Positions 2,496-23,667 of a stretch of 38,831 bases of DNA are shown here, piece by piece. The notes beneath the pieces were generated by a model that saw nothing but the letters and a program-made list of their open reading frames with translations, did no database searches and was not told where the DNA came from. Numbering within the stretch: the stretch's first letter is position 1; each line of letters starts with the position of its first letter. The DNA is from an uncultured Ruminococcus sp. (lineage in GTDB: Bacteria; Bacillota; Clostridia; Oscillospirales; Ruminococcaceae), in contig CAMOOV010000004.1 of assembly GCA_946621745.1 (NCBI GenBank), forward strand, positions 1 to 38,831, in the 5' to 3' direction. A program made the translations under genes and the position numbers.

Positions 2496-3300
2496 GATCG
2501 AGATCCGGAATCTTTCGGTCGATTATACCGAGCGCGGCAAACAGTTCAATGCGCTGCACGATGTATCATTCGGTGTTGGCGCGGGCGAATTCGTCAGCGT
2601 GATCGGCGCGAGCGGCTGCGGAAAATCCACGCTGCTCAGTGTATTGGAGGGACTCTATCAGGCCGCGGGCGGCAGTGTCGAGATTGACGGCACGCCGCTG
2701 CACGGCACGGGCCGCGAACGAGGTGTCGTGTTCCAGCATTATTCGCTGTTTCCGTGGATGACTACGCGCAGCAATATTGCATTTGGCATCAAGCAGGCGC
2801 GGCATGACCTCAGCCGGCGGGAGCGCTATCAGATCGCGGATGAATTCCTCGGAAAGGTCGGTCTTGCCGAATTCGGTAAGAAGTATCCCTCGCAGCTTTC
2901 GGGCGGTATGCAGCAGCGCGCTGCGATCGCCCGTGCGCTTGCGATGAATACGGAGATTCTGCTCATGGATGAGCCGTTCAGCGCGATCGACGCGAAAAAC
3001 CGCATCATCCTTCAGGAGCTGCTGCTCTCACTCTGGGAGGGCGACAGTCCCGAACACCGCAAGACAGTCGTGTTCGTTACGCATGATATTGATGAAGCGA
3101 TCCTGCTCTCAGATAAGATCGTCGTGCTGACGGCGCATCCCGGAACGGTCAATGAGATCGTGCAGGTGCCGTTTGAGCGTCCGCGGAACCGTGCGGAGCT
3201 GGTCAAAACCGAGGAATACGGCAGATTCCGGAATCGTCTGCTCTCGCTGCTCTATCAGGATGTGGCGGAGCGCATCGGCGGAGAGGAGGTCGTGCTATGA
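2482..3300 (+). CDS. ABC transporter ATP-binding protein (SsuB/TauB type)
   Basis: A 272-residue ATPase starting MPTNKIEIRN; the ATG at 2482 has GGAGG 9 bp upstream and overlaps the end of the binding-protein gene by 14 bp. Visible motifs: Walker A GASGCGKST (42-50), Q-loop Gln85, signature LSGGMQQR (139-146), Walker B ILLMDEPF (159-166) and the switch His in VFVTHDIDEA. Order and sequence match the NitT/TauT subfamily energising anion or sulfonate import. The protein is expected on the cytoplasmic face, bound to the permease encoded immediately downstream. Confidence 0.95.
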   Translation: MPTNKIEIRNLSVDYTERGKQFNALHDVSFGVGAGEFVSVIGASGCGKSTLLSVLEGLYQAAGGSVEIDGTPLHGTGRERGVVFQHYSLFPWMTTRSNIAFGIKQARHDLSRRERYQIADEFLGKVGLAEFGKKYPSQLSGGMQQRAAIARALAMNTEILLMDEPFSAIDAKNRIILQELLLSLWEGDSPEHRKTVVFVTHDIDEAILLSDKIVVLTAHPGTVNEIVQVPFERPRNRAELVKTEEYGRFRNRLLSLLYQDVAERIGGEEVVL

Positions 3301-4217
3301 CGCTGAAGGATCGCTTGCTCCGGGTGGCACATCTTTTGTTCGTGATATTGCTGCTTGTGCAGCTTTTGCCTGACAGATCGACGAAGGATGTGTATACCGG
3401 TGCGCTGATCGCATTTGCGGTCGGACTGGAAGCCCTCACGCTCGCACTGAGCTTCCTCATCAAAAAGAAAGAAAGCCTCACACTGCTGCTGGATATCGTC
3501 GGCTTTATCTTTGTGCTGCTTACGGTCTGGTCGCTGGCAACGGCAAAGTTCAATGTGCTGAATGATCTGCTGTTCCCGGCGCCGGGCAAGGTTCTGCATC
3601 AGTTTGCGGAGGACAGAGAGAAAATCATCATCAATATCAAAAGCTCGCTCGGTATTACGGTCAAGGGCTTTCTGCTCGCAGCGGCTGCAGCGATCCCGCT
3701 GGGACTGTTCCTCGGCTGGAATGCGCGGCTCGGCGGCGCTGCGACCTATATCTCCAAATTCTTCAGCTCGATTCCGCCGATCGTCTATATTCCATACGGT
3801 ATCGCGCTGCTGCCGACCTTCCGTTCGGTCTCGGTCTTTGTCATTTTTCTGGCGACCTTCTGGCCGGTCTTTGCCGGCACGATGAGCGGTGTCATGCACG
3901 TCGATCAGCGCATCATTGACTCCGCAAAGGTGCTGAATGTCCCGAAGCCGGAAATGCTTTTCTCAGTGATACTTCCGGCGGCGCTCCCGCAGATCTTCCT
4001 CGGCTGCAATCAGGGACTGAGCGTTTCGTTCATTCTGCTGACCTCTGCGGAGATGATCGGCGCAAGAGACGGCATGGGCTACTATGTCAAATATTATTCC
4101 GATTTCGGTGACTATACGCGCACGATCACCGGCCTGCTGGTCATCGGCGTTGTCGTCATCGGCGTGACATTTTTGTTCAATCTGCTCCAGAAGCGGATGC
4201 TCAGATGGAAAAAGTGA
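3297..4217 (+). CDS. ABC transporter permease (SsuC/TauC type)
   Basis: A 306-residue membrane protein overlapping the ATPase gene by ATGA. Three hydrophobic segments (about 10-25, 34-55, 63-80) precede the core BPD transporter domain, an N-terminal extension longer than in many SsuC proteins. The coupling motif typical of the family lies around DSAKVLNVPKPEMLFSVILP, followed by LPQIFLGCNQGLSVSFI. It forms the channel of the importer with the lipoprotein and ATPase. The substrate is not readable from the sequence; co-regulation with cysteine genes suggests a sulfur compound. Confidence 0.93.
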   Translation: MTLKDRLLRVAHLLFVILLLVQLLPDRSTKDVYTGALIAFAVGLEALTLALSFLIKKKESLTLLLDIVGFIFVLLTVWSLATAKFNVLNDLLFPAPGKVLHQFAEDREKIIINIKSSLGITVKGFLLAAAAAIPLGLFLGWNARLGGAATYISKFFSSIPPIVYIPYGIALLPTFRSVSVFVIFLATFWPVFAGTMSGVMHVDQRIIDSAKVLNVPKPEMLFSVILPAALPQIFLGCNQGLSVSFILLTSAEMIGARDGMGYYVKYYSDFGDYTRTITGLLVIGVVVIGVTFLFNLLQKRMLRWKK

Positions 4218-4272: not shown

Positions 4273-4371
4273 GTTTTACGGCGCTGTTCGCGTCGATTGT
4301 TTGATCTTGGAAAATCTCATTTCGCTTCCGGCGTGTCATCCAAAGTTTTTGGTCGAGCTTTTTTCAAAAAG
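4273..4371 (+). repeat. Dispersed repeat, copy 1
   Basis: About 99 bp closely matching the reverse complement of 12497-12594. The shared core runs from TTACGGCGCTG through CATTTCGCTTC and GTCATCCAAAG to TTTTTGGTCGAG and a TTTTTTCAAAAAG run. It occupies the gap between the ABC operon and the sigma factor gene. No coding function is supported for the frame running through it. It is probably a genome-wide intergenic repeat; an adjacent GGGGCAGCGCCC (4397-4408) is a short palindrome. Confidence 0.75.
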
Positions 4372-4462
4372 ATAGCAGGATTCCAAGGGGCAGCGCCCTT
4401 CGCTGTCCCTAAAGCTAAAAACGCAGAAATTCGTGCTTTTCTGAGCCGCCATAAAAATCATC

Positions 4463-4620: not shown

Positions 4621-5181
4621 ATGCAGGATGACAGCCGGATCATAGCACTGCTGCAAAAACGGGATGAGCAGGCAATCAGAATCATCAGGGAACAATACGG
4701 AACAATGTGTTTGCAGATCGCATATCGCATCACCGGCAGCCGCGAGGATGCAGAGGAATGCTTGAGTGATATGCTGATGACCGTCTGGAATACGATCCCG
4801 CCGATGATACCTGAAAAGCTGCCTGCATATCTTGTATCGCTCGTCAGCAGAAGGGCAATCGACAAGTATGAGCGCGCCCGCCGTCAGAAGCGCGGCGGTA
4901 TGCAGTTTGAAGGCGCACTGGACGAGCTGGCAGAGCTTCTCCCATCCGGAGAATGCGTCGAACAGCAGGTCGAGCAGCGGGAGCTTACAAATTATATCAC
5001 AAAGTGGCTGCGGTCGCTGCCGTCCGCTCACAGGCGTATTTTTATGCAGCGCTATTACTGGTCTGAATCGGTGCAGGAGATCGCGACGGCCAATCAAATG
5101 AGTTCAGATGCAGTCAAAATGCAGCTGATGCGTCTGCGAAACAAGCTGAAAGCATATCTGAGAAAGGAGGGATTGCTTTGA
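4621..5181 (+). CDS. ECF-type RNA polymerase sigma factor
   Basis: A 186-residue sigma-70 family protein. The ATG at 4621 is preferred over the in-frame ATG at 4585 because AGAGGGGGTGAT precedes it at normal spacing. Region 2 is residues about 15-85 (YGTMCLQIAYRITGSREDAE, then VWNTIPPMIPEKLPAYLVSLVSRRAIDKY, given here as parts). Region 4 is about 130-180 (SLPSAHRRIFMQRYYW, then the helix-turn-helix EIATANQMSSDAVKMQLMRL). Only regions 2 and 4 are present, as in ECF factors. It overlaps the downstream membrane protein gene, the usual arrangement of a sigma/anti-sigma pair, so it probably responds to an extracellular signal; regulated genes are unknown. Confidence 0.92.
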   Translation: MQDDSRIIALLQKRDEQAIRIIREQYGTMCLQIAYRITGSREDAEECLSDMLMTVWNTIPPMIPEKLPAYLVSLVSRRAIDKYERARRQKRGGMQFEGALDELAELLPSGECVEQQVEQRELTNYITKWLRSLPSAHRRIFMQRYYWSESVQEIATANQMSSDAVKMQLMRLRNKLKAYLRKEGLL

Positions 5182-6572
5182 CACCGCTTGAGATGATGAA
5201 AGCGCTGCATGATGTTCCGGAAGACCTGATCGACGCGCAGGACTTCATCTGCCATACAGAAGAAGATTCCGAAGCGCTGACAGCGATTCAGCTGAAAAGC
5301 ACTGCGCCTGCGCCGGAACAGCGCAGTATGCGCACAGAGGGCAATCCCCCGCGCAAGGAATACGGCATCACACTGCTGCCCTATCTTCTGACCGCAGGCT
5401 GCACGGCGGCCTGCATTGCGGGATTCGGGCTGATGATCCGGTTCTCAATGGGAAATGAGATCGTCGGTACGCAGTCCGAAATTCCGATATCCGTACAGGA
5501 AAGCGTTTCTTCCATGACAACTGCCGTCAGTACCGGAGAGAGGGCGGTGCTGACGGCAATCACAGAAACGCATACGGTACAGCAGACAGTGACCGTCACT
5601 GCGGAAGACCGGACAGAGCCCGTTTCCGTCACGGAAACGGATGCGGTCACGGAACCAGCCGCCATAACAGAAACGCTCGCTGCCGTGACTGCGGCGCAGA
5701 CTGAACCCCTGCCTCTGACTGAAACAACCGCTGTCCCGGAACTTCCCGCCGAAACGACTGCCGTGGATGTTTTAGATTCTTCTATGACTGAGGACGGCAC
5801 AGCGCACTCTGCTGATGCAATCACAAACGAACCGTCTGCGCCCGTCTGTGAAACGGGCGATAAGGACATGGATGCAATCCTTGATGATCGTGACAAAATG
5901 ACCGAATTCGGTTTCTCCGATGAAATGATCACTGCACTGAGAGATTCTGAACCGGTCAAGCCAATCAGGATCTTTGCATATGTAAATATGAAAAAAGGAT
6001 TCAATGTTTCTGATCTCCTGCCATCAGACGGCGGAACGATGCAAACAAGCATTGCTTTTCATTCTGACTTCGTTTCCTGCAACGGATATGTCGGCGGTCC
6101 TTCTTCCGCATTCAGCGCTGCCGATTTTGACGCTTCAACAGGAATGATTCACATATCATTCGGAACGGGCGGCTATTCCATTCTGATGAATACTCTCAAT
6201 ACCAATTTGTTCCGGGGAAAATACACTTATTCCGGAACTGCGCATCCTTATACTGATATGATAAGTGTGCAGAGGCCGGATGTTACAAATCCTTCCGCAT
6301 TATCAGATTCGCAGATTGATTCCTGCTTTGAATACGGAGTGATCGGCGCGGGCGATGTCAACGGCGACGGATTTATTTCTTCCGCAGATGTAACCCGGAT
6401 ACTGCGTTATGACAGCTGTTACAATCATGCGGGGCTGATTCCTGACGGGACAACTACACTTATGCTTGCTGCCGGTGATGTGAATTGTGACGGTGCAGTC
6501 GATATTGCAGATGCACACGCAGTCGCAGATCACCTGGCTGATCCGGCAAACAGCAGCTATTATTTCTGGTAA
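5178..6572 (+). CDS. Membrane-anchored dockerin protein, probable anti-sigma factor
   Basis: A 464-residue protein. The start is TTG at 5178, overlapping the sigma TGA, with AGGAGG 6 bp upstream, so translation is coupled. Residues 1-62 are a cytoplasmic acidic segment in anti-sigma position. One membrane helix spans about 63-88 (ITLLPYLLTAGCTAACIAGF). A Thr/Glu/Val-rich extracellular linker runs about 95-245, then a beta-rich region (about 262-375) of unknown fold. The C-terminus (about 390-455) is a dockerin-type I pair: GDVNGDGFISSADVTRIL and GDVNCDGAVDIADAHAVADHL, both with calcium-loop Asp/Asn patterns. Topology suggests that the dockerin or ectodomain senses the surface and the N-terminus holds the sigma factor. 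The N-terminal segment shows no clear zinc-finger anti-sigma motif, so anti-sigma function rests on gene order and topology. Confidence 0.8.
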   Translation: MTPLEMMKALHDVPEDLIDAQDFICHTEEDSEALTAIQLKSTAPAPEQRSMRTEGNPPRKEYGITLLPYLLTAGCTAACIAGFGLMIRFSMGNEIVGTQSEIPISVQESVSSMTTAVSTGERAVLTAITETHTVQQTVTVTAEDRTEPVSVTETDAVTEPAAITETLAAVTAAQTEPLPLTETTAVPELPAETTAVDVLDSSMTEDGTAHSADAITNEPSAPVCETGDKDMDAILDDRDKMTEFGFSDEMITALRDSEPVKPIRIFAYVNMKKGFNVSDLLPSDGGTMQTSIAFHSDFVSCNGYVGGPSSAFSAADFDASTGMIHISFGTGGYSILMNTLNTNLFRGKYTYSGTAHPYTDMISVQRPDVTNPSALSDSQIDSCFEYGVIGAGDVNGDGFISSADVTRILRYDSCYNHAGLIPDGTTTLMLAAGDVNCDGAVDIADAHAVADHLADPANSSYYFW

Positions 6573-6614
6573 TCATAAAACAAATCGGATGCTTCATTCA
6601 GGAGGCAGAGCTTT

Positions 6615-8876
6615 ATGAAGATGATGTCAGTTTTAACGGCGGGTATTCTGATCTTTTCCGCCATGCCGCTGCAATTTGCGGAAGCATCAAAAGCAGAATA
6701 TTCCGGCACCTGCGGAGAAAACATCACATGGAAGATCGAGGACGGCGTACTGACACTGACCGGCAGCGGTGAAACAAAGAATTATGCAGAGGGTACTGCG
6801 ACATGGATGCTGAATGCAGATGAATACGGCACTGTCCGGAAAATCGCAGTCGGCGGCGGCATTACATCTCTGGGGCGGAATATTTTTGCGCTGCTGAATA
6901 ATGTTGACGAAATTGAACTGCCGGATACACTGACGGCGATCGGTGAAAATGCACTGTCCAATAAGCCGCTTCTGACTTCGCTGCAAATGCCGGAGAGCAT
7001 TACATATCTGGGCGACGGCGCATTCAGCAATTCCGGCCTGACAGAAGCATATTTCCCGCCGGATATGGATGATCTTCCGGCACGCTGCTATGCCGGTACC
7101 AATATCAAATCGGTTGAGATTCCTGCGCACATCAAAAGGCTCGGAAAGAATTGTTTTTCGGATTCCGCTTTGGAGGAATGCATTTTTCCGGACACCGATA
7201 TCGAAATCGGCGCAGGCTGTCTGAGCGGATGCACAAATCTGACGAATGTGCATCTGCCGGAGGGCATTCATGCGCTGCCGGACAGACTTCTGAACGGCTG
7301 TACGGCGCTGGAAGCCTTTGAGATTCCGGAAAGCGTCAGCCTGCTCGGAAACGGCACATTCGCCTCCTGCGGTCTGCATACGGTTTCACTGCCGGCAGGG
7401 ATCACCGCATTACCGGAGGGCTGCTTTCAGTATTGTCAAAATCTGGAATCTGTATATATTCCGGATTCGGTTTCGGACATCGGCAGCAAATGCTTCTATG
7501 ACTGTCCGCTGCTGACAGAGATCCGTCTGCCGGAAAGCGCAGTCAGATTCGGCGTGAATGCATTGCCGGAGAGCTGGGTATCACAGCAGGGCGATTTTGT
7601 GACCGTATGCGGCGGACAGCTTTATCAGTACAACGGAACAGATGAAAATGTTGTCCTGCCGGAGTCGGTGACGGCGGTGCTGACAAACGCATTTCCACAC
7701 CGCTTCAACAATCCGCATCCGGTGCATTCCGTTGTCATCAACGACGGCTGCCGCACGGTCGAAAGCGGCGCATTCAGTTTTTGTTATGCGCTCGAATCTA
7801 TGACAATTCCGGATTCCGTCACAAGCATTGCAGCGGATGCGGTCACAGGCGGCGCATCGCCGGAAATTCATGCGAATTATTATACCGCCGCCCATGCATT
7901 CAGCGTACAGAACGGTTTTCCGTTTGTGCCGGTGCAGGAGGAAAAGCTGCCGGCAATGCGCGAACCGGATTATGCAGCGGAAACGCTTTCATTCGGCAAT
8001 AATCCCGGCTTATTCGGAGACGGATATCAGATGTCCGCATGGGCCATGGCGGAGCTGCTGGATGCATCGCAGCGTCCTGAAAAAATCGCAGAGGATGCAG
8101 CAAAGCAATGGGGCGGCTCCTGCTTCGGGCTTTCAGCGGTGACCGTTCTGGTTCATGCCGGACTGCTCTCGCCGCAGGATCTCGATCCGGAGGCGAAAAC
8201 GCTGCATGATGTCAAGCCGACGGATCAGGCAGTTTCCATCATTAATTATTATCACATGATACAGTCGCTCGATGCGTCGCAGACAAAGCCTGTGCCGCAG
8301 CTGCAAAACCTTGTGCTGGCTGTGCAGTATGCAGAACAGTATCAGAACGGCGGTGATCCGTTTGTTCTGTCTTTTCAGCGCGTCGGCAGCGGGAGCGGCC
8401 ATGCAGTTGTCGGATACGGCATCAAGCGCGGTGAATGGGAATGGGACGGCGTGACCTATGACCGCCGCATCCGCACATGGGACTGCAACTATTCCGAGCA
8501 GACGGACAAGAGCCAGTTTTATTTTGACAGCAATACGCTGCACTGGTGCATTCCCGCATACGGCGTTTACTATGCCGGAGAAAACGATTTCAACGCAAGA
8601 GTCGGTGTTCCGTGCGGCGATGCGGAGACACTCGACCGCTATCCTTATTTTGCATCTTCGCCGCTTGCCGGAGATGTGGATCTCAGCGGTACGGTCGAAC
8701 TCTCTGACGCTGTTTTTCTTGCGAAATTTATCTGCGAACAGGCTGACAGCACACTTTCTTACCGCGGCGCATATAACGCAGATTCAAACGCCGACGGACT
8801 TATGACGATTGACGATGCGATTGCGATTCTCAGGATCATCACAACTGAAAGCAATGTCGGTTCTGCTCTTTCATAA
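6615..8876 (+). CDS. Secreted LRR - papain-like cysteine peptidase - dockerin protein
   Basis: A 753-residue secreted protein: signal peptide 1-24, BspA/TpLRR-type leucine-rich repeats about 30-440 (recurrent LPDTLTAIGENAL-like units after the cap TCGENITWKIEDGVLTLTGSG, given in part), and a cysteine-peptidase-like domain about 465-670. Putative catalytic residues are Cys503 in GGSCFGLS, His596 in GSGHAVVGYG and Asp623/Asn625 in TWDCN. A dockerin-like pair closes it (about 686-748: GDVDLSGTVELSDAVFLAKF and DSNADGLMTIDDAIAIL). AGGAGG lies 10 bp before the ATG, and the gene is 42 bp after the membrane dockerin gene, probably in the sigma operon. The same domain order recurs in the giant protein at 33242. 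Peptidase activity is predicted only; substrates are unknown. It could be a cellulosome-bound protease acting on surface proteins. Confidence 0.87.
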   Translation: MKMMSVLTAGILIFSAMPLQFAEASKAEYSGTCGENITWKIEDGVLTLTGSGETKNYAEGTATWMLNADEYGTVRKIAVGGGITSLGRNIFALLNNVDEIELPDTLTAIGENALSNKPLLTSLQMPESITYLGDGAFSNSGLTEAYFPPDMDDLPARCYAGTNIKSVEIPAHIKRLGKNCFSDSALEECIFPDTDIEIGAGCLSGCTNLTNVHLPEGIHALPDRLLNGCTALEAFEIPESVSLLGNGTFASCGLHTVSLPAGITALPEGCFQYCQNLESVYIPDSVSDIGSKCFYDCPLLTEIRLPESAVRFGVNALPESWVSQQGDFVTVCGGQLYQYNGTDENVVLPESVTAVLTNAFPHRFNNPHPVHSVVINDGCRTVESGAFSFCYALESMTIPDSVTSIAADAVTGGASPEIHANYYTAAHAFSVQNGFPFVPVQEEKLPAMREPDYAAETLSFGNNPGLFGDGYQMSAWAMAELLDASQRPEKIAEDAAKQWGGSCFGLSAVTVLVHAGLLSPQDLDPEAKTLHDVKPTDQAVSIINYYHMIQSLDASQTKPVPQLQNLVLAVQYAEQYQNGGDPFVLSFQRVGSGSGHAVVGYGIKRGEWEWDGVTYDRRIRTWDCNYSEQTDKSQFYFDSNTLHWCIPAYGVYYAGENDFNARVGVPCGDAETLDRYPYFASSPLAGDVDLSGTVELSDAVFLAKFICEQADSTLSYRGAYNADSNADGLMTIDDAIAILRIITTESNVGSALS

Positions 8877-9066
8877 CCGCTGCCCGTAGATCTGACAAAA
8901 TATCAGAAGCTCATGATTGATGTCCCAACTATCTCTTGAAGATATCTGCTTGTCTTTTTTCCGTGAGACTGCGCAGCTATTCTTCAAGATTAAATTGGTA
9001 CATCAATAACGGCTAACTTATCAACACGGAGAAATGTTTCTGTGCAGATTTCCGAATATAGACTGA
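8877..9066. other. Intergenic stretch between the LRR peptidase and the metB operon promoter
   Basis: No gene is seen. TCTTGAAGATA near 8933 and TATTCTTCAAGA near 8982 can form an imperfect stem with a long loop, but no T-run follows, so a terminator is not claimed. AATAACGGCTAACTTATC near 9005 is a possible distal operator element, unsupported by comparison. Confidence 0.4.
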
Positions 9067-9119
9067 GCCTATTGACAAACATAAAGCTCCGTGCTATAAT
9101 GCATACATAACCGATAGGC
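9067..9119 (+). promoter_or_regulatory. Promoter of the methyltransferase-metB-cysK operon (regulon promoter D)
   Basis: TTGACA (9072-9077), a 17-bp spacer and TATAAT (9095-9100) make a near-perfect promoter. Five bases later comes CATAAC (9106-9111), as in the promoters at 1072, 13586 and 16560. GCCTAT (9067-9072) and ATAGGC (9114-9119) form an inverted pair flanking the core promoter; the promoter at 16540 has the same pair, 21 bp further apart. A dimeric regulator bound at both half-sites could cover the promoter; this is inference. Confidence 0.85.
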
Positions 9120-9143
9120 AATATATGTAAAAGGAGAACGACC

Positions 9144-9254
9144 ATGAAAACAATGTGCTGTATGCTGTGTTGTCAGACCGCAAAAAACAGGATCCGAATG
9201 TCTCGCACACACGCCATGCAGCAGCGATGTCGCCGCATCTTTCATGTATCATGA
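9144..9254 (+). CDS. Polycysteine leader peptide of the metB-cysK operon
   Basis: A 36-codon ORF with AAGGAG 7 bp before the ATG, starting about 38 bases after the predicted transcript start. It opens MKTMCCMLCC: cysteine codons at 5, 6, 9, 10 (9156-9161 and 9168-9173), methionine at 1, 4 and 7, and one more Cys at codon 29. The stop (9252-9254) lies 7 bp before a terminator hairpin. Clustered codons for the operon's own product amino acids are the hallmark of attenuator leader peptides, such as trpL or hisL. Downstream genes interconvert methionine-derived homocysteine/cystathionine and cysteine. The peptide probably acts in cis through ribosome stalling at Cys codons when Cys-tRNA is low. 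It is too short and basic at its end to suggest an enzyme; a secreted or metal-binding role is possible but less likely. Confidence 0.78.
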   Translation: MKTMCCMLCCQTAKNRIRMSRTHAMQQRCRRIFHVS

Positions 9255-9280
9255 ACATCAGCAGCGCGGAGTGCATTCGG
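9194..9280 (+). promoter_or_regulatory. Antiterminator pairing of the cysteine attenuator
   Basis: CCGAATG (9194-9200) is fully complementary to CATTCGG (9274-9280). CTC (9202-9204) and GC (9205-9206) can extend the helix with GAG (9269-9271) and GC (9266-9267) across small bulges. The downstream partner contains most of the terminator's 5' arm, so the two structures exclude each other. A ribosome stalled at the Cys codons (9156-9173) would leave 9194 onward free and allow this pairing. A ribosome moving on would cover it and let the terminator form. Confidence 0.65.
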
Positions 9281-9312
9281 CCCTGAAGCCGCCGGCATTC
9301 TGCGCTGTTTTT
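9262..9312 (+). terminator. Rho-independent attenuator terminator
   Basis: The arms CAGCGCGGAGTGC (9262-9274) and GCATTCTGCGCTG (9295-9307) pair over 13 bp with two G-T pairs. An inner CGGC/GCCG stem (9278-9281 with 9288-9291) caps the loop, and TTTTT (9308-9312) follows. It lies within the operon leader, after the leader peptide and 17 bp before the methyltransferase start, so it acts as a conditional stop. Confidence 0.85.
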
Positions 9313-9328
9313 ATGCATTGGAGGATTT

Positions 9329-11400
<2,072 letters not shown>

Positions 11401-11410
11401 GGTGAGCAGA

Positions 11411-12319
11411 ATGCAGTATTATGAATCCATGCAGGCGCTGATCGGGCATACGCCGCTCGTGCGTCTCGGCAATATCGTGACAAAGCAGGGCGTGAATGTG
11501 TTTGCAAAGCTGGAGCTGTGGAATCCGTCCGGCAGCGTCAAGGACCGCACCGGTCTGTATATGGTCAATGATGCGGAGCGGCGCGGTCTGCTCAAAGCGG
11601 GCGGCACGATCGTTGAAGCGACCGCGGGCAATACTGGTCTCGGCATTGCATTTGCGGCGCTGAACCGCGGATACCGCATCATCTTCGTTGTCCCGACGAA
11701 ATTCTCCGCAGAAAAGCAGGCATTGATGCGGGCGCTCGGCGCGGAGGTCATCAATACGCCGCGGGAATACGGAATGCTCGGCGCGGTGGAAAAGGCGGAG
11801 GAGATCAAGGCGGGAATCCCCGGCTCGATCTCGCTGGAGCAGTTCAAAAACCAGAGCAATCCGCTGGCGCATTATGAAACGACCGGCAGGGAGATCTGGG
11901 AATCGCTTGACGGGAAAATTGATTATGTTGTCGCGGGCGCGGGCAGCGGCGGAACCTATACCGGCATCCTGCGGTATCTGAAAGAGCGCGATCCGCAGAT
12001 CCGCGGCATTCTTGCGGATCCGGTCGGCTCGACAATGGGCGGCGGCGAACACAGCGACTATAACATTGAGGGCATCGGCAATGATTTTATCGCAGATACG
12101 ATGGATATGTCACTTGTCGATGATGTGATAAAGGTGACGGATGACGAAGCCTTTGAGACGGCTCGTCTGCTCGCGAAAACAGAGGGCATCTTTGCGGGAT
12201 CGTCCTCCGGCGCGGCAATGGCAGCAGTGCGGAAGCTGACGGAGCGCGTCAGCAGCGGCAATATCGTCACGGTCTTCCCCGACCGCGGCGACCGCTATTT
12301 CAGCACAGGTCTATACTAA
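11411..12319 (+). CDS. Cysteine synthase / cystathionine beta-synthase family protein
   Basis: A 302-residue fold-type II PLP enzyme starting MQYYESMQALIGHTPLVRLG; GAGGTGAG precedes the ATG, and an upstream in-frame ATG overlapping metB is rejected. The PLP lysine lies in NPSGSVKDRTG (about Lys43), the substrate loop in EATAGNTGLG, and the phosphate loop in VAGAGSGGTYTG. Length and motifs fit CysK (O-acetylserine plus sulfide to cysteine) or MccA-type O-acetylserine-dependent cystathionine beta-synthase (O-acetylserine plus homocysteine). Operon position next to a gamma-lyase family gene makes the second reading attractive. It is the last gene before a hairpin-rich gap. Confidence 0.92.
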   Translation: MQYYESMQALIGHTPLVRLGNIVTKQGVNVFAKLELWNPSGSVKDRTGLYMVNDAERRGLLKAGGTIVEATAGNTGLGIAFAALNRGYRIIFVVPTKFSAEKQALMRALGAEVINTPREYGMLGAVEKAEEIKAGIPGSISLEQFKNQSNPLAHYETTGREIWESLDGKIDYVVAGAGSGGTYTGILRYLKERDPQIRGILADPVGSTMGGGEHSDYNIEGIGNDFIADTMDMSLVDDVIKVTDDEAFETARLLAKTEGIFAGSSSGAAMAAVRKLTERVSSGNIVTVFPDRGDRYFSTGLY

Positions 12320-12412: not shown

Positions 12413-12496
12413 AAGCCCCAATCTTCCCCTTATAGAACGCTGGGGGAGTTTCGCTCTCTGCGGAGAGCGACGAGGGCTCTGCCCTCGACCCGCGAG

Positions 12497-12594
12497 CTTT
12501 TTGAAAAAAGCTCGACCAAAAACTTTGGATGACATCGCCCGAAGCGAAATGAAATTTCCCCAGACCGTAAAATAGGCGCGACCAGCGCCGTAAC
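12497..12594 (-). repeat. Dispersed repeat, copy 2 (inverted relative to copy 1)
   Basis: The reverse complement of this segment matches 4273-4371 from the ACGGCGCTG block through CATTTCGCTTC to a GAGCTTTTTTCAAAAAGCTC palindrome, which is complete only in this copy. The neighbouring CGAGGGCAGAGCCCTCG (12472-12488, on the minus strand) is another hairpin. Short frames on both strands here share protein-level similarity only because they are translations of the same repeat. The two copies bracket 8.1 kb containing the sigma operon and the metB operon. Confidence 0.75.
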
Positions 12595-12672: not shown

Positions 12673-13599
12673 ATGACGATACAACAGCTGAGATATGTTC
12701 TGACGATCGCGGAAACCGGCTCCATGAACAAGGCGGCGGAGCTGCTCTATGTTTCGCAGCCCTCGCTGACGGCATCCGTACAGGAGCTCGAAAAGGAGAC
12801 CGGCATCCGGATCTTCAACCGCAGCGGCCGCGGCGTGACCGTCACGAATGACGGCGCGGAATTCCTGCAATACGCGAATCAGGTCGTCGGACAGTTCGAG
12901 ATCCTGACCGAAAAATATACCGCAAAGGGCGGCGTCAAGAAGAAATTCGGCGTCTCCGCGCAGCATTATTCCTTCGCGGTCAAGGCCTTCGTCGAAATGG
13001 TCAAGCGCTTTGATACGGCGAAATATGAATTCGCGATCCGCGAGACAAAAACAGCAGAGGTCATCAGCGATGTTGCAGGGCTCCGCAGCGAGATCGGCGT
13101 GCTGTATCTCAACAATTTCAACCGCAAGGCGATCCTCAAGCTCCTGCATACGAACGGTCTGGAATTCACGCCGCTGACCAGATGCAGCGCATATGTGTAT
13201 CTCTGGAAAGGGCATCCGCTCGCGCAGAAAAAGCAGATCACCTTTGAGGATCTTGCGGATTATCCCTGCCTGTCATTTGAGCAGGGCGCAAACAGCTCGT
13301 TCTATTATGCCGAGGAGATTCTCAGCACGGCGGATTATCCGCGGACGATCAAGGCCAATGACCGTGCGACCATGCTCAATCTGATGGTCGGACTGAACGG
13401 CTATACGCTCTGCTCCGGCATCATCTGCGAGGAGCTCAACGGCTCTGATTATCTCGCCGTGCCGTTTGCGGCGGAGGATGAGGATGCAATGGAGATTGGC
13501 TATATCACGCTGAAAAAGTCGATCCGCAGCAAGGCCGGAACGATCTATATTGAGGAACTGAAACGCTATCTGGGTATAGATTTTTCTGATAACGGTTAA
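12673..13599 (+). CDS. LysR-family transcriptional regulator
   Basis: A 308-residue LysR regulator; GAGGTG precedes the ATG. The N-terminal winged helix-turn-helix (1-65) reads TIQQLRYVLTIAETGSMNKA, then SQPSLTASVQELEKETGI, and a periplasmic-binding-like effector domain occupies about 90-300. It lies between the cysteine genes and the oxidoreductase operon on the same strand. Shared sites CTGATAAC-N15-GGTATTGGACA occur before the ABC importer and the oxidoreductase operon, so it is the obvious candidate activator; its inducer is unknown. GTCGGCCCTGCCGAC just before the ribosome binding site is a small hairpin that might modulate translation. No clear promoter of its own is visible. Confidence 0.93.
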   Translation: MTIQQLRYVLTIAETGSMNKAAELLYVSQPSLTASVQELEKETGIRIFNRSGRGVTVTNDGAEFLQYANQVVGQFEILTEKYTAKGGVKKKFGVSAQHYSFAVKAFVEMVKRFDTAKYEFAIRETKTAEVISDVAGLRSEIGVLYLNNFNRKAILKLLHTNGLEFTPLTRCSAYVYLWKGHPLAQKKQITFEDLADYPCLSFEQGANSSFYYAEEILSTADYPRTIKANDRATMLNLMVGLNGYTLCSGIICEELNGSDYLAVPFAAEDEDAMEIGYITLKKSIRSKAGTIYIEELKRYLGIDFSDNG

Positions 13600-13653
13600 T
13601 CGCACTTTGGTATTGGACAGATCGCGGAAATCGGTGTATCATAACAGCATACC
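13586..13653 (+). promoter_or_regulatory. Promoter of the 2-oxoacid oxidoreductase operon (regulon promoter B)
   Basis: CTGATAAC (13586-13593), 15 bp, GGTATTGGACA (13609-13619), 17 bp after TGGACA, TATCAT (13637-13642), five bases, CATACC (13648-13653). Every spacing equals promoter A at 1072-1139. The upstream element overlaps the end of the LysR gene, and TAACGGTTA (13590-13598) is a short dyad within it. Confidence 0.8.
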
Positions 13654-13673
13654 GCAAAGATTGGAGAATGAAT

Positions 13674-14189
13674 ATGAAAGAGATCCTTTGGCTCGGACGC
13701 GGCGGGCAGGGCGCATTTACGGCGGCAAAGCTCTTCGGCGCGGCCTATACAGCGAATGACGATTCGCATTATGCGCTTGCATTTCCGTCCTTCGGCCCCG
13801 AACGGCGCGGCGCTCCGGTCAGGGCATTCACAAAGCTCGATGAAAAGCCCGTGCTCGACCGCAGTCAGACCGAGCAGGCAGATTTTGTCGTCGTGCTGGA
13901 CGATACGCTCTATACACCGGCGCTGCATGATCTGCTGAAGCCGGACGGCCGCATCATTGTCAATTCCAAAACGCCGATCCCCGATACCTTTACATTTGAC
14001 GGCGAAGCAGTCGCGGCGGAATTCCGGCTGCCGACGGTCAATACCGTCATGCTCGGCATCGTCTCGGCATTGTCGGATTACATTACCGAGGAACAGGCGG
14101 TCAGCGCCGTTGAGGGCTATATGCCGCTGAAAATTCAGGCGCGCAATACCGGCGCGGTGAAGCTGGCGAGAGAGGCGGTGCAGAAATGA
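13674..14189 (+). CDS. 2-oxoacid:ferredoxin oxidoreductase, gamma subunit
   Basis: A 171-residue subunit starting MKEILWLGRGGQGAFTAAKL. The ATG at 13674 is chosen over that at 13668 because TTGGAG lies 7 bp away rather than 1 bp. The GRGGQG loop, FPSFGPERRGAPV and the DRSQTEQADFVVVLDD region are typical of the gamma (PorC-type) domain. First of four overlapping genes in the order gamma-delta-alpha-beta. The complex decarboxylates a 2-oxoacid to an acyl-CoA with reduction of ferredoxin, or runs in reverse as a reductive carboxylase. Confidence 0.93.
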   Translation: MKEILWLGRGGQGAFTAAKLFGAAYTANDDSHYALAFPSFGPERRGAPVRAFTKLDEKPVLDRSQTEQADFVVVLDDTLYTPALHDLLKPDGRIIVNSKTPIPDTFTFDGEAVAAEFRLPTVNTVMLGIVSALSDYITEEQAVSAVEGYMPLKIQARNTGAVKLAREAVQK

Positions 14190-14479
14190 GACCGTATCTA
14201 AGAGAAAAGACATCATTCTCCGCTGCGGAGATTCCGGAGGCGACCGCCTTTGAAGCCGGCTATCTGGTATCGGTCAACAGCGGCTGGCGCAGCATCCGGC
14301 CGGTCATTGATACGGGACGGTGTGTCGGATGTGAACAGTGCTATCTGTACTGTCCCGACGGCGTGATCTCGATACAGAACGGCAGGCCCGTCATTGATTA
14401 TGATTTCTGCAAGGGCTGCGGCATCTGCGCAAAGATCTGTAAGATCGGCGCGATCGGAACGGAGGCGGAGCATCAATGA
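14186..14479 (+). CDS. 2-oxoacid:ferredoxin oxidoreductase, delta (ferredoxin) subunit
   Basis: A 97-residue protein overlapping the gamma gene by 4 bp. Two 4Fe-4S motifs are complete: CVGCEQCYLYCPDG (about 49-62) and CKGCGICAKICKIG (about 76-89). It carries electrons between the catalytic subunits and soluble ferredoxin. The N-terminal SVNSGWRSIRPVID is typical of PorD-type subunits. Confidence 0.93.
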   Translation: MRPYLREKTSFSAAEIPEATAFEAGYLVSVNSGWRSIRPVIDTGRCVGCEQCYLYCPDGVISIQNGRPVIDYDFCKGCGICAKICKIGAIGTEAEHQ

Positions 14480-15657
14480 GCAAGCGTTTTTTATCCGGCA
14501 ATGAGGCATTTGCTGAGGGCATCCGTCTTGCAAAGCCGGATGTGATTTCTGCCTATCCGATCACCCCGCAGACGATCGTTGTCGAACGGCTTTCGGAAAT
14601 GGTCGAGGACGGCAGTCTGAAATCGGAATTCATTCATGTGGAATCGGAGCATTCAGCGCTCTCCTGTGCGATCGGCGCAAGCGCGGCGGGCGCAAGAGCC
14701 TTCACCGCAACATCCTCACAAGGATTGCTTTACATGGCCGAATGTCTCTATTACGCATCCGGCGGGCGGTTCCCGATCGTCATGATGAATGCAGACCGCT
14801 CGACGGCGCTGCCGTGGAATATCTACGGCGACCAGCGCGACAGCCTTTCACAGCTCGACAGCGGCTGGATTCAGGTCTATGCGGAGAATGCGCAGGAAGC
14901 GCTCGACCTCGCACTGATGAGCTGGCGCATCGCGGAGGACAGCCGCGTTTCCACGCCGGTCATGGTCAATCTCGACGGCTTTGTGCTGACGCATACCTAC
15001 GAAACGGTTGAGATTCCGGAGCAGGCGCAGGCAGATGCGTTCCTGCCGCCCTATGTCACGGAGAACCGCGTCGATTTTGACGATCCGAAGAATATGGCAT
15101 TCTCGGCAGGCCCCGATACCAATTTCATTTTCAAATACAAGGCGCATCGGGGAATGCTCGCTGCAAAGGAAGTCATCGCGGAAACGGAGACCGCATTCGC
15201 AGAGAGCTTTGGCAGAAAATATACGGGAATGCTCGACAGCTACCGCACAGAGGATGCAGATTTTGTGCTCGTGACGCTCGGCAGCATCGCCGGACTCTGC
15301 CGTGAGACCGCCGACCGGCTGCGGGAGCAGGGCATCAAGGCCGGCGTTGTGCGTATCCGCTATATGCGCCCGTTCCCGAATGCGGAGATCGCCGCAGCAC
15401 TTCAGAATGCAAAGGCATTCGGCGTGCTGGAAAAGGATATCTCCTTCGGCAATGAGGGAACGGTCTATACAAATGTTAATTCCGCGCTGCAAAAGGCCGG
15501 TGTCCGGATCCCGGGCTATAATTTCATCGGCGGCTTGGGCGGCAGAAATATTTCTGCGCATGATATCGCGCAGATTTTTGAAGATATCCGCAGCGGGACG
15601 GATCATGTGAATTTCATCGGGATCGGAGGCGACGGCAATGGCGAATCCAACGGCTGA
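14476..15657 (+). CDS. 2-oxoacid:ferredoxin oxidoreductase, alpha subunit
   Basis: A 393-residue subunit overlapping the delta gene by ATGA. The diagnostic SAYPITPQT (about 20-28), EHSALSCAIGASAAGARAFT and SSQGLLYM are present, with a C-terminal transketolase-like domain ending FIGGLGGRNIS. Length fits separate-subunit POR/VOR enzymes rather than fused clostridial PFOR. The substrate (pyruvate, 2-oxobutyrate, branched-chain or aryl 2-oxoacid) cannot be read directly. It overlaps the beta gene by 20 bp. Confidence 0.93.
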   Translation: MSKRFLSGNEAFAEGIRLAKPDVISAYPITPQTIVVERLSEMVEDGSLKSEFIHVESEHSALSCAIGASAAGARAFTATSSQGLLYMAECLYYASGGRFPIVMMNADRSTALPWNIYGDQRDSLSQLDSGWIQVYAENAQEALDLALMSWRIAEDSRVSTPVMVNLDGFVLTHTYETVEIPEQAQADAFLPPYVTENRVDFDDPKNMAFSAGPDTNFIFKYKAHRGMLAAKEVIAETETAFAESFGRKYTGMLDSYRTEDADFVLVTLGSIAGLCRETADRLREQGIKAGVVRIRYMRPFPNAEIAAALQNAKAFGVLEKDISFGNEGTVYTNVNSALQKAGVRIPGYNFIGGLGGRNISAHDIAQIFEDIRSGTDHVNFIGIGGDGNGESNG

Positions 15658-16534
15658 ACGGCTTTCGCGTGACGAATATTTCTACGGGCACAAGGCCTGT
15701 GCCGGATGCGGCGGCAGTCTTGCCGTCAGAGCAGCGCTCAAGGTGCTGGGGCAGAATGCGGTATCCGTCCTGCCGGCGGGATGTATGTCGGCGGTCGGAT
15801 TCAATTTCCCGCAGCTCTGCTTCTCGAACAACTCGATCATTTCGACTTTTGCCGGAACCGCATCCATGCTGACCGGCATCGAAGCCGGACTGCGCGCCCG
15901 CGGATACAGCGATTTCACCGCGGTCGGCTTTGCCGGCGACGGCGGCACGGCGGATATCGGCATTCAGGCGCTCTCCGGCGCGATCGACCGCAATGACAAC
16001 ATCATCTATATCTGCTACGACAACGAAGCCTATATGAATACCGGCATCCAGAAAAGCGGCCTGACGCCGTTCGGTGCGCGCACCACAACGACGCCCGCCG
16101 GCGCCAATATCCACGGCAATCTCCGGCCGAAAAAGAATATGTTTGAGATCGCGGCTGCGCATGATATTCCCTATGCGGCGACGGCCAGCGTCGGCTATCT
16201 GCCGGATTTCATCCGGAAGGTCGAAAAGGCTGCGCAGATCAAGGGAACGAAATATATCCATGTGATCGCGCCCTGTCCGACGGGCTGGGGCATCGCGCCG
16301 GATGAAACGGTCGAGATCGCAAAGGAGGTCGTGGACTGCGGCCTCTGGTATCTCGCGGAATACGAGAACGGCGCATTCACGCTGAATCATAAGCCGAAGG
16401 ATTTCACAAGCGTCGAAGCATATCTGAAAAAGCAGGGGCGCTTTCAGCATCTCGATCTCGACGATATCAAGACCGTCATCGAATCGAGAGATCAAAAATG
16501 GTCATATATCGAAAGGAACTTCACTTATAAATAA
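15638..16534 (+). CDS. 2-oxoacid:ferredoxin oxidoreductase, beta subunit (TPP-binding)
   Basis: A 298-residue subunit. The N-terminus has GHKACAGCGGSLAVRAAL; the thiamine diphosphate/Mg site is GFAGDGGTADIGIQAL (about 92-107), followed by NDNIIYICYDNEAYMNTG. Conserved cysteines (CAGC near 20-23, CPTG near 216-219) match PorB-type subunits that bind a cluster. Last gene of the operon, followed directly by promoter C of the CoA-ligase gene. Confidence 0.93.
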   Translation: MANPTAERLSRDEYFYGHKACAGCGGSLAVRAALKVLGQNAVSVLPAGCMSAVGFNFPQLCFSNNSIISTFAGTASMLTGIEAGLRARGYSDFTAVGFAGDGGTADIGIQALSGAIDRNDNIIYICYDNEAYMNTGIQKSGLTPFGARTTTTPAGANIHGNLRPKKNMFEIAAAHDIPYAATASVGYLPDFIRKVEKAAQIKGTKYIHVIAPCPTGWGIAPDETVEIAKEVVDCGLWYLAEYENGAFTLNHKPKDFTSVEAYLKKQGRFQHLDLDDIKTVIESRDQKWSYIERNFTYK

Positions 16535-21079: not shown

Positions 21080-23667
21080 TATGCGATCATCGCTTTGAGC
21101 AGACTGAGATCTGCTGCGGTCAGAACGCCGTCATCATTGAGGTCGCCGGATTCCCAGTCTGTCATGCTGCCTGCGGTCAGCAGATATTGCAGCATCATTT
21201 CCGCGTCAGCATGATTGAGGGCTCCGTCCGCATTGACATCGCCGCGGATGATCTGCGGAACCTGATTCGGCTTGCTGCCGTAGATCGCGATCTCCGCGAT
21301 ATTGCAGCAATACACATTGTCCTTGTTCGCGCTGGTTTTCGGTGCGCCGGAGGGAACTGCATAGCGCACATACCGCGCCTCCGTATCGCCCTCCAGATCG
21401 CGGATGTAATTCATCGTGAATGCCGGAACACCGTCGATCGTGTGAATCTTTGTCCAGTTCGTACCGTCCTTGGAGATCTCGAAATACGCATCGGCACAGC
21501 GGTATTCGTAGCCGCTGCGCGGGCAGTATGCGATCGCCGCGATATCATAGAGCTCGCCGAGATCCGCCTGCACCCAGCCGTCGCCGACACCGTCGAAATA
21601 GGTGCCCTGATTGCCGTCAAAGACCTTGCTCTTGTCGTTCGCGGAATTGTTCCATGCATTCGAGCCGGTAACGCTGACCGGTGTCAGCGGCCTGACGCTC
21701 GGGCCGGTATGCGGTTCGCCGTAAAGCTCGATCTCCGCAATGTTGCAGCAGCAGACATTGTCTTTGTTATTCGGATTCTTCGGTGCGCCGTCCGGAGCCT
21801 GATAGCGGATATACCGGCCGGAGACAAAGCCCTGCGTGTTGTAATAATGCATTCCGAAGGACGGCTCTCCCTCGACCGTATAGATCGGTGTCCAGTCCAC
21901 GCCGTCATCGGAAATGAGGAACTGGCAGTCCGATGCGCGGTATTCATAGCCGCTGCGCGGGCAGTAGCCGATTGCAGTGATATCATAGCTCTGTCCGAGA
22001 TCCGCCTGCACCCAGCCGGCACCGACACCGTCGAAATAGGTGTTCTTATTGCCGTCGAACGCTTTGTCATAAGCGGTGCCTGCGTTATTGTTCCACGAAT
22101 TGGAGCCGGAAAGCACTGCCTTGGAAAGGTCGATCGGATTGGTGCGGGCGAGGCTGCCCTTTACGCCGTCGAGAATATAGGTCGTGACGGAATTGCCGGG
22201 GAGCGTGACATTCAGTCTGCTGCCGCTGAGCGCGGTCGTGCCGATGTCGTTCCAGTTCTCGGAATTGCTCGTGCGGATGCCCTTTGCAGCGCCGCCGAGT
22301 GCGGCGAATCCGGAGAGATCAAAGCTCAGATCGGAATTGCCGGACGATGTGTTGTATGCGACCAGCACGAGCTGTTCATTCTGCGGATCATATGCTGCCA
22401 TCGTCGAGCCGGAGGATTTGAGCATGATCATGCCCGGACGGATATAGCGCGTATACTGGCCAAAGCAGTAATATTTCTTGGAGAGAACGATCTTGTCTTG
22501 ATCGTGATCGGCAACAGCCGTGCCCCAGAAGCCCTTGCTCATGTCGATCATGCCGGAATCCTTCTTGCCCAGATAGCCTGCCGCGCAGACATGCTTGTCA
22601 ATGACCTGCCAGAGGATCCATGCGGAAGCGTTGAGGTCGTTGCAGTCGGTGGTGATGCGCTGCGAGAGCCAGAGACCGGGCGCCATGGCACCGGCATTCT
22701 GTCCGGCCTCGCCGTTGCCGTCAACCTCGCTCATCCAGAGGTTCTTGCCGGCGGAGAGTGCGGTGTTTTTGAGTTCGGTGCGCTTCCAGCCGCCGTATGT
22801 ATGCGTGTCGATGCGTCCGACCGCCTTTTTCGCATCGGCGGAGAGCTTGTTGAATGCGTCGATCTGTGTGTCGATCGAGGTTTCATCCGTGCCGGAGATG
22901 ATGACATCGCTCATGCCGCGGGCGGCCATAGACTTTTGCAGCTCCACGATGATCTTGGATTCGGAATTACCGAGATCGAAGTGACAGCCCTCCTGCTTCG
23001 GACTGTTCGCGCCCCAGAAATTGGTATAAGGCTCGTTCATTGCCTCAACGGACTGGATATCGACGCCCCATTCATCGCGGTAATGCTTGCAGACCTCTGC
23101 GAGATATTCCGCGAATGCGGTGTAGGAATCGTCCTTGAGGTTATTCGCGCCCGGATTGGTATTGCCGGTCGAGCAGCCGGATTTGCACATATAATACGGC
23201 GGAGAATTCGAGAACATTTCCACGATCGCATCATCGCCGGCAGCTTTAATGCACCGCATCAGGACATTGCGCTGATTGGCGTCAGCCGACCAGTCGTAGA
23301 CGGGCTGACCGTTGACGAGCTTGGTATAGCCGGGCATATTGGAGTCTGTGCGGGTGATGTGGTTGTGCTGCGGATTGTCGCCGCCGCCGATGTTGAAGCG
23401 CATGATGTTCAGGCGCAGGCCGTCATCTCCGAAGAAGATGTCAGCGGCCTGCTGCGCGAGCGAGTCGGAATAGCCGACGCGGTTTGCCCACCAGCAGAGC
23501 GAGGTGCCCCAGCCCTGAAAGACACCGTCATTGATGGCGTAGGTGTTGTCGGGCGAGACAACGACCGAGGTGGCTGCGGAAGCGGTGAGCGGGACCGATC
23601 CGCAGAGGGAACCGGCGAGGCAGAATGCCATCATGCCGGCAGCCCATTTTTTCTTTTTCGATTTCAT
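21079..23667 (-). CDS. Secreted GH30 glycoside hydrolase with two discoidin (F5/8-C) modules and a dockerin
   Basis: An 862-residue enzyme; the ATG at 23667 follows AAGGGGG, and an upstream in-frame ATG at 23700 is rejected. Signal peptide about 1-31. The catalytic domain (about 32-510) shows GH30 features: FQGWGTSLCWWAN, acid/base Glu212 in MNEPYTNFWG and nucleophile Glu314 in LWMSEVDGN. Two closely similar F5/8 type C modules follow (about 518-665 and 667-805), likely sugar-binding. The C-terminal dockerin (about 812-862) has GDVNADGALNHADAEMML and GDLNDDGVLTAADLSLL. GH30 includes endo-beta-1,6-galactanases, glucuronoxylanases and glucosidases. The NxHNHITRTDSN and NSPPYYM regions suggest a beta-1,6-galactanase-like branch, with modest confidence. 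It is expected in the cellulosome. Confidence 0.9.
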   Translation of the reverse strand: MKSKKKKWAAGMMAFCLAGSLCGSVPLTASAATSVVVSPDNTYAINDGVFQGWGTSLCWWANRVGYSDSLAQQAADIFFGDDGLRLNIMRFNIGGGDNPQHNHITRTDSNMPGYTKLVNGQPVYDWSADANQRNVLMRCIKAAGDDAIVEMFSNSPPYYMCKSGCSTGNTNPGANNLKDDSYTAFAEYLAEVCKHYRDEWGVDIQSVEAMNEPYTNFWGANSPKQEGCHFDLGNSESKIIVELQKSMAARGMSDVIISGTDETSIDTQIDAFNKLSADAKKAVGRIDTHTYGGWKRTELKNTALSAGKNLWMSEVDGNGEAGQNAGAMAPGLWLSQRITTDCNDLNASAWILWQVIDKHVCAAGYLGKKDSGMIDMSKGFWGTAVADHDQDKIVLSKKYYCFGQYTRYIRPGMIMLKSSGSTMAAYDPQNEQLVLVAYNTSSGNSDLSFDLSGFAALGGAAKGIRTSNSENWNDIGTTALSGSRLNVTLPGNSVTTYILDGVKGSLARTNPIDLSKAVLSGSNSWNNNAGTAYDKAFDGNKNTYFDGVGAGWVQADLGQSYDITAIGYCPRSGYEYRASDCQFLISDDGVDWTPIYTVEGEPSFGMHYYNTQGFVSGRYIRYQAPDGAPKNPNNKDNVCCCNIAEIELYGEPHTGPSVRPLTPVSVTGSNAWNNSANDKSKVFDGNQGTYFDGVGDGWVQADLGELYDIAAIAYCPRSGYEYRCADAYFEISKDGTNWTKIHTIDGVPAFTMNYIRDLEGDTEARYVRYAVPSGAPKTSANKDNVYCCNIAEIAIYGSKPNQVPQIIRGDVNADGALNHADAEMMLQYLLTAGSMTDWESGDLNDDGVLTAADLSLLKAMIA
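21280..22112 (-). repeat. Tandem duplication of the discoidin module
   Basis: Two coding units about 400 bp long with a period of about 441 bp. The peptides FDGVG(A/D)GWVQADLG, YCPRSGYEYR and NIAEI(E/A)(L/I)YG recur in order, with strong DNA similarity, pointing to fairly recent duplication. Confidence 0.85.

Follow-up and report, generated by a model that had tools for sequence, protein, structure and literature searches.

We identified upstream of the methyltransferase-mccB-cysK/mccA operon in the window (the whole 38,831-nt stretch of DNA analyzed here, from an uncultured Ruminococcus sp.) what is very probably a ribosome-mediated transcription attenuator of the trp/his type that senses cysteinyl-tRNA. 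According to this model, transcription would proceed from the promoter at positions 9072-9100, and a ribosome would translate the leader. When cysteine is ample, the ribosome would pass the Cys codons and reach the stop codon at 9252, where only segments 3 and 4, the two arms of the terminator, would lie between it and the polymerase; the terminator (9262-9312) would then form, and transcription would end before the methyltransferase gene. When cysteine is short, the ribosome would stall at codons 5-10 and cover the RNA to about 9183, so that segment 2, the left arm of the antiterminator, would be free from 9188 onward and would pair with segment 3 while segment 4 is still to be transcribed. 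The terminator would then fail and, in the presumed direction of the response, the operon would be expressed, its products, as judged by homology, converting methionine-derived homocysteine to cysteine. The leader is presumably translated in the cell, with a shortage of Cys-tRNA as the likely signal.

All elements of this arrangement lie on the forward strand, and the leader ORF and the sites preceding it can be read directly. The sigma-70-type promoter (9072-9100), TTGACA-N17-TATAAT with the TG extension of an extended -10, agrees with the consensus at 12 of 12 positions, which bears out the consensus promoter of the original prediction. An AAGGAG Shine-Dalgarno (SD) sequence (9131-9136) is followed by the 36-codon ORF MKTMCCMLCCQTAKNRIRMSRTHAMQQRCRRIFHVS (9144-9254), which starts with ATG at 9144, ends with TGA at 9252 and has counterparts in relatives. 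Its Cys codons 5 and 6 (9156-9161) and 9 and 10 (9168-9173) belong to the stretch TGC TGT ATG CTG TGT TGT (9156-9173), the putative control codons, a cluster that is conserved; the MKTMCCMLCC leader, its ribosome site and these four Cys codons are thus as originally described. An SD-preceded ORF with four Cys in six codons arose in none of 2,000 dinucleotide shuffles of the window's 420 nt upstream, and one with three Cys arose in 23 of 2,000. Over 81 upstream sequences (80 relatives and the window), a three-Cys ORF was found in 65 real sequences versus 28 of 2,430 shuffled ones. The exact pattern TGTGYTGYATGMTGTGYTGY has eight matches across the 30 genus genomes, every one in this leader; with one or two mismatches allowed, it also matches elsewhere in these genomes. 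As a separate observation, the sequence CCGAATATAGnCnnnGnCTATTGACA (9052-9077), containing an inverted repeat ATAG...CTAT, lies across the -35 and is seen by eye in many upstream regions of the genus; it is possibly a LysR-type site.

We searched for relatives through the methyltransferase, and scored a leader when at least three Cys fell within seven codons in the 400 nt upstream of its gene; all counts cover related sequences, which are not independent of one another. In the genus, the methyltransferase is present in 18 of 30 genomes, and 17 of these 18 leaders have at least three clustered Cys, the 18th (L018) having CSC. The family search gave a methyltransferase match in 35 of 396 genomes; 16 of the loci (L049-L064) are at 48-71% identity, and of these 12 have a clear Cys cluster and L063 a weak one (CRC), and no Cys cluster was seen upstream in L055, L056 and L060. 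Among the named relatives (the best 80 of 430), 65 have the Cys leader immediately upstream of the gene, a weaker cluster (CSC) is present in L087, L105 and L135 have their upstream sequences cut by contig ends, and seven (L142-L146, L148 and L153) have no Cys leader. The other five, all titled Lachnospiraceae (L132, L134 and L149-L151), have the gene order mccB-cysK-methyltransferase, and there the poly-Cys leader and a terminator are located upstream of mccB instead. When the order (394 genomes) and class (391 genomes) were searched, with matches at E-values up to 1e-40, all seven loci from other families at 45-62% identity (L155-L157 and L165-L168, in seven families) were found to carry a poly-Cys leader, that of L166 with no ribosome site recognized by our search pattern. 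The leader is therefore present in relatives from eight families, i.e., the window's and seven others. In L156, L157, L165 and L167, the leader does not head the gene cluster: it is preceded on the same strand by a cysK-like gene (41-44% identity) and is thus flanked by cysK and the methyltransferase gene. A cluster of three Cys occurs in none of 24 distinct loci of distant paralogues at 30-38% identity (14 from the order and class searches, L163 being the same place as L073, and ten from the family search). Furthermore, a detector that requires an SD, an ORF, three Cys in six codons and a terminator recovered 61 of the 80 expected places when applied to both strands of 80 loci, with three matches elsewhere in 1,535,000 strand-bases, and these three are the leaders upstream of mccB in the rearranged operons of L149-L151. 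Conservation of the CC codons, proposed as a check with the original prediction, is thus seen for the clustered Cys codons of the orthologous leaders. In the sister species of the window (L002/L075), the leader has no stop before the terminator (L075:4560-4727) and would thus be translated through the hairpin; this stop-less leader represents decay, an assembly error or a real variant.

In the window, folding agrees with the predicted 13-bp terminator stem, its TTTTT and the sharing of its 5' arm with the antiterminator. Segment 3 (9262-9274) pairs with 9295-9307 over 13 bp, or 15 bp with two flanking pairs, and segment 4 (9295-9312) comprises this 3' arm and the T5 tract at 9308-9312. The energy is -32.9 kcal/mol with the inner hairpin included, and a simple terminator scan missed the structure due to its loop limit of 8. 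The left arm of the antiterminator, segment 2 (9188-9204), consists of CAGG and CCGAATGTCTC, and the terminator-loop extension ATTCGGCCCTG (9275-9285) completes the antiterminator. We placed a stalled ribosome at codon 10 and folded the RNA in front of it as far as the terminator loop; the 7-bp pairing CCGAATG/CATTCGG of the original prediction was recovered within a longer helix of 11 pairs between 9194-9204 and 9269-9280 (one bulged base), plus CAGG/CCTG. However, this pairing is a local one: ATTCGGCCCTG was gained in the terminator loop of the window and its sister species, where together with C9274 it pairs with CCGAATG, and CCGAATG/CATTCGG is present in only these two among the 18 genus leaders, other letters pairing in the relatives. 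The window's 2:3 pairing alone is not better than that of shuffled sequences (p = 0.18), and individual p-values over the genus leaders range from 0.04 to 0.97, with one of 18 passing (L002, 0.040). An antiterminator is present in the genus, but its 2:3 pairing could not be told apart from that of shuffled spacers (0.69 versus 0.65). In alignment A3 (12 relatives and the window; L084, which our script did not find, and L085 were left out), 95.5% of the terminator cells are paired in the 13 sequences; double-sided changes are seen in two of 12 pairs, a number that 192 of 500 shuffles reached, and the covariation score was reached by 1 of 500. Equilibrium folding of the entire leader gave a stability within the usual range (z = -1.70, 12 of 200 shuffles being as stable), and we set such folding aside as uninformative. 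Of the competing folds suggested for examination, the antiterminator ahead of a stalled ribosome was obtained, but the equilibrium fold did not stand out.

For a wider comparison of the 2:3 pairing, we kept, of 102 distinct upstream sequences, the 76 in which a Cys ORF is accompanied by a terminator at least as strong as -10. Among the 75 leaders scored (L064 was dropped as too short), 27 have p < 0.05, mostly in the R. flavefaciens range; in L005, L009, L133 and L140, the hairpin chosen by the ungapped terminator finder was wrong or incomplete. Of 15 leaders tested separately, mostly from other lineages, five have p < 0.05, in a test where the hairpin chosen was wrong for L064 and unusual for L157. 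Other lineages have their own versions of the antiterminator, such as the 14 pairs of L149 (p = 0.005) and the 8-pair core of L136 (p = 0.025).

Compensatory changes are seen in both hairpins in the group related to Ruminococcus flavefaciens, whose alignment A2 contains 30 of 38 leaders (L088, L092, L099, L100, L106, L119, L120 and L126 had been left out beforehand as other leader types). In the terminator, 93.3% of the cells are paired, and eight of 13 pairs changed on both sides, a number reached in none of 500 shuffles; when the partner was slid by one to three columns, 28.5-59.4% were paired and the covariation scores were lower. The 13-pair antiterminator has 87.8% of its cells paired and six pairs changed on both sides, which four of 500 shuffles reached; 16 of its 20 doubly changed cells belong to the two outermost pairs, where 11 and 12 sequences lack pairing, as 18 sequences do at the innermost pair. 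Its 10-pair core is paired in 98.0% of cells and has four pairs with changes to both partners, each in a single sequence; no shuffle out of 500 reached this, and four of 500 reached the covariation score, while sliding the partner by one to three columns gave 25.2-76.9% paired cells and lower scores. Segment 2 looks like a duplicate of segment 4 (CGTATTCTGCG and GCATTCTGCGC), a likeness to be expected of two competitors for segment 3. In a third hairpin, which lies between segments 2 and 3 and whose loop contains the stop codon in some leaders, 84% of the cells are paired, with no covariation. The ORF part of A2 contains 22 internal gaps, of lengths 9, 12 or 15, in addition to 27 leading gaps of 18 that reflect only the choice of start codon, and the gaps behind the ORF have lengths 1, 2, 3, 14, 15 and 17. 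Compensatory changes, another check attached to the original prediction, were thus found for both hairpins in this group, but in the window's own genus the antiterminator was no better than shuffled. Late in the leader, we also noted a GCGATGT block (9224-9230; L119:4892-4900) that does not vary in the 30 rows of A2 or the 13 rows of A3, a constancy greater than the peptide would seem to require. The block had no covarying partner in these alignments, and an RNA polymerase pause was rejected as its role, since the window does not fit the pause consensus well.

The position of segment 2 relative to the Cys codons is consistent with the attenuation model. In 37 of 38 leaders (L086-L128 range), segment 2 starts 14-26 nt after the last clustered Cys codon (L100 has 85), with a median of 19 nt and quartiles of 17-22 nt over the 38, which is about where a stalled ribosome would end. 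In a model of the ribosome states of 72 leaders (three of the 75 were dropped, their terminators being weaker than -10), the terminator 5' arm is sequestered at 0.76 with the ribosome at the Cys codons versus 0.19 with the ribosome at the stop. Since the spacer-shuffled control gives 0.64, most of this contrast comes from having any spacer exposed; the control is exceeded most in the R. flavefaciens range (0.85 versus 0.66 shuffled). The genus geometry excludes L002, L005 and L009. About 28 nt separate segment 2 from the stop that follows it, and a ribosome at the stop leaves segment 2 uncovered; the cysteine-replete state of the model therefore needs the ribosome to stand between arms 2 and 3.

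The operon itself begins with a SAM-dependent methyltransferase gene (9329-10228; TIGR00027, PF04072), followed by a cystathionine gamma-lyase/homocysteine desulfhydrase-like (MccB-like) gene (10240-11400; NF005810, PF01053) and a CysK/cystathionine beta-synthase-like (MccA-like) gene (11411-12319; TIGR01136, TIGR01139, PF00291). The best NCBIfam model of the MccB-like protein, NF005810, scores 575 bits, below its cut-off of 594, and the CysK/MccA-like protein scores 342.2 bits with TIGR01136 (cut-off 344.15) and 340.8 with TIGR01139 (350.95). The gene set is that of the methyltransferase-metB-cysK operon originally proposed, but is better read as MccB-like and MccA-like, and the operon probably serves methionine-to-cysteine conversion. 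By homology, it would thereby make the very amino acid that its leader reads, cysteine. L129 has a methyltransferase-LuxS-mccB-cysK operon (LuxS gene at L129:5848-6342), which fits a route from methionine through S-adenosylhomocysteine and homocysteine to cysteine; several other relatives have longer gaps between the methyltransferase gene and mccB, and in L136 the methyltransferase gene is followed by one for an NlpA-lipoprotein, which we take to be methionine-binding. The neighborhood recurs in many named relatives, with an ABC permease gene before the operon (3297-4217 in the window) and LysR and 2-oxoacid oxidoreductase genes after it (12673-16534). Elsewhere in the window, an inverted repeat with arms at 4276-4408 and 12462-12593 (82% identity over 136 nt) may be a dispersed element, and a direct repeat spans about 400 nt (21277-21671 and 21718-22112, 72%). 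At 5178-8876, two proteins end in repeats that resemble dockerins, and the second has BspA-type leucine-rich repeats.

Control could alternatively be exerted at the promoter, by a CymR-like Rrf2 protein or a LysR protein, with the leader ORF and terminator amounting to a fixed leaky terminator. Just 3' of the -10 hexamer lies, at the presumed transcription start, the conserved box CCGATAGG (9111-9118), a possible operator that resembles CymR-type sites. Such a protein would act at this box or at the inverted repeat beside the -35. The box or one of three close 8-mers occurs at the equivalent place in 49 of 54 relatives (L075-L128), and these 8-mers have 30 matches elsewhere on the same strand, about the number expected by chance. 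The genome of the window encodes one Rrf2 protein above the cut-off, a conserved ATAGnCnnnGnCTAT is seen by eye over the -35 in many genus upstream regions, and a LysR gene is located downstream in 51 of the 80 named loci (the best 80 of 430), which differ in length. Moreover, CymR governs mccAB in Staphylococcus aureus (PMC2869319). Nevertheless, promoter control would leave the Cys codons, the in-frame gaps and the covarying antiterminator unexplained, and we consider it highly improbable as a replacement for attenuation; a promoter regulator could act in addition to it.

The Cys codons themselves might be there for the peptide, if the leader were a functional Cys-rich small protein, binding for example metal or persulfide, and the terminator were incidental. 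The peptide is rich in Cys, and in the R. flavefaciens-related group another block of conserved Cys (QRCC) lies close to the end of the peptide. However, between families only the Cys cluster appears by eye to be shared, its spacing (CCMLCC, CCCCC, CPCCCC and CCCxACC) and the rest of the peptide varying, the window's leader peptide has no NCBIfam or Pfam match, and in 37 of 38 leaders the distance from cluster to predicted antiterminator stays at 14-26 nt; such a role is extremely improbable. A dual attenuator, stalling at either Met or Cys codons, agrees with the methionine that feeds the pathway and with 58 of 65 leaders, in which a Met lies no more than two codons from the Cys cluster; seven of the 65, however, have no nearby Met, and induction of a methionine-consuming pathway by Met shortage makes little sense. 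We therefore regard dual sensing as very unlikely, and the methionine sensing that had been suggested for the interleaved Met codons as at most a lineage-specific addition. The cysteine attenuator originally proposed is supported by the conservation of the Cys codons and by the covariation of both hairpins in the best-sampled relatives.

A broader reading, which we hold tentatively and put at somewhat short of an even chance, is that these leaders belong to an attenuation system that is spread across the class Clostridia, works through leader peptides and is specific to cysteine, acting where T-boxes and repressors were thought to act. In such a system, the leader would follow the operon through its rearrangements, with the letters of the antiterminator renewed in each lineage and the Cys codons and spacing kept, and might join the sensing of Cys (in Ruminococcus, also of Met) with a promoter operator. 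The attenuator of the window would itself give a methyltransferase family a signal, cysteine shortage, and link this family to the conversion of methionine to cysteine in bacteria of the gut and rumen.

We rejected two established RNA regulators for the window: a Cys T-box had no Rfam match at 9040-9340 at E-values up to 1, and an S-box/SAM riboswitch had none in the leader. The sole Rfam match of the window is a tRNA, and five relatives' loci, out of 178, had no riboswitch or T-box match at the gathering score. In the literature searched, with most subscription papers outside our reach, we found no cysteine leader-peptide attenuator of Clostridia. Ribosome-mediated attenuators of the trp/his type are known from Proteobacteria, and share with the one described here a leader ORF with control codons, an intrinsic terminator and an antiterminator that uses the 5' arm of the terminator; the differences are the amino acid, cysteine, the clostridial host and the position of segment 2, which the ORF contains and which precedes the stop by about 28 nt. 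Similar genes for the same kind of pathway form the yrrT-mtnN-mccA-mccB operon of B. subtilis, which is under repressor control and not that of a leader-peptide attenuator. Similar genes of this kind are also those of S. aureus mccAB, which has CymR as its repressor instead of such an attenuator (PMC2869319).

Polycysteine leaders of mycobacteria reportedly lie upstream of cysteine genes. These ORFs are reportedly cysteine-responsive and leaderless (Canestrari 2020, cited in PMC13236596), whereas the window's leader has an SD and a terminator. In the cys/cbs leaders of Actinobacteria, the Cys run lies close to the stop, and a conserved terminator hairpin is lacking (PMC1262725); like ours, these and the mycobacterial leaders place Cys codons in series ahead of cysteine genes. 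The uORFC-8-2 motif of Rhodobacterales is a likely attenuator of cysS that likewise combines tandem Cys codons in a leader ORF with a terminator and predicted attenuation, but occurs in Alphaproteobacteria, usually has its Cys at codons 14-15, and controls a cysteinyl-tRNA synthetase (PMC8632094) instead of the methyltransferase found downstream of our leader. The His leader of hisS/hisZ in bacilli resembles ours in being a leader-peptide attenuator from the Firmicutes, a group that usually employs T-boxes, and differs in its amino acid, histidine, in its genes and in its host class, Bacilli; its source describes such systems as not shown until then outside Proteobacteria and Actinobacteria (PMC2965389). 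Compared with these systems, the leader described here would be a known kind of regulator in a new group of bacteria.
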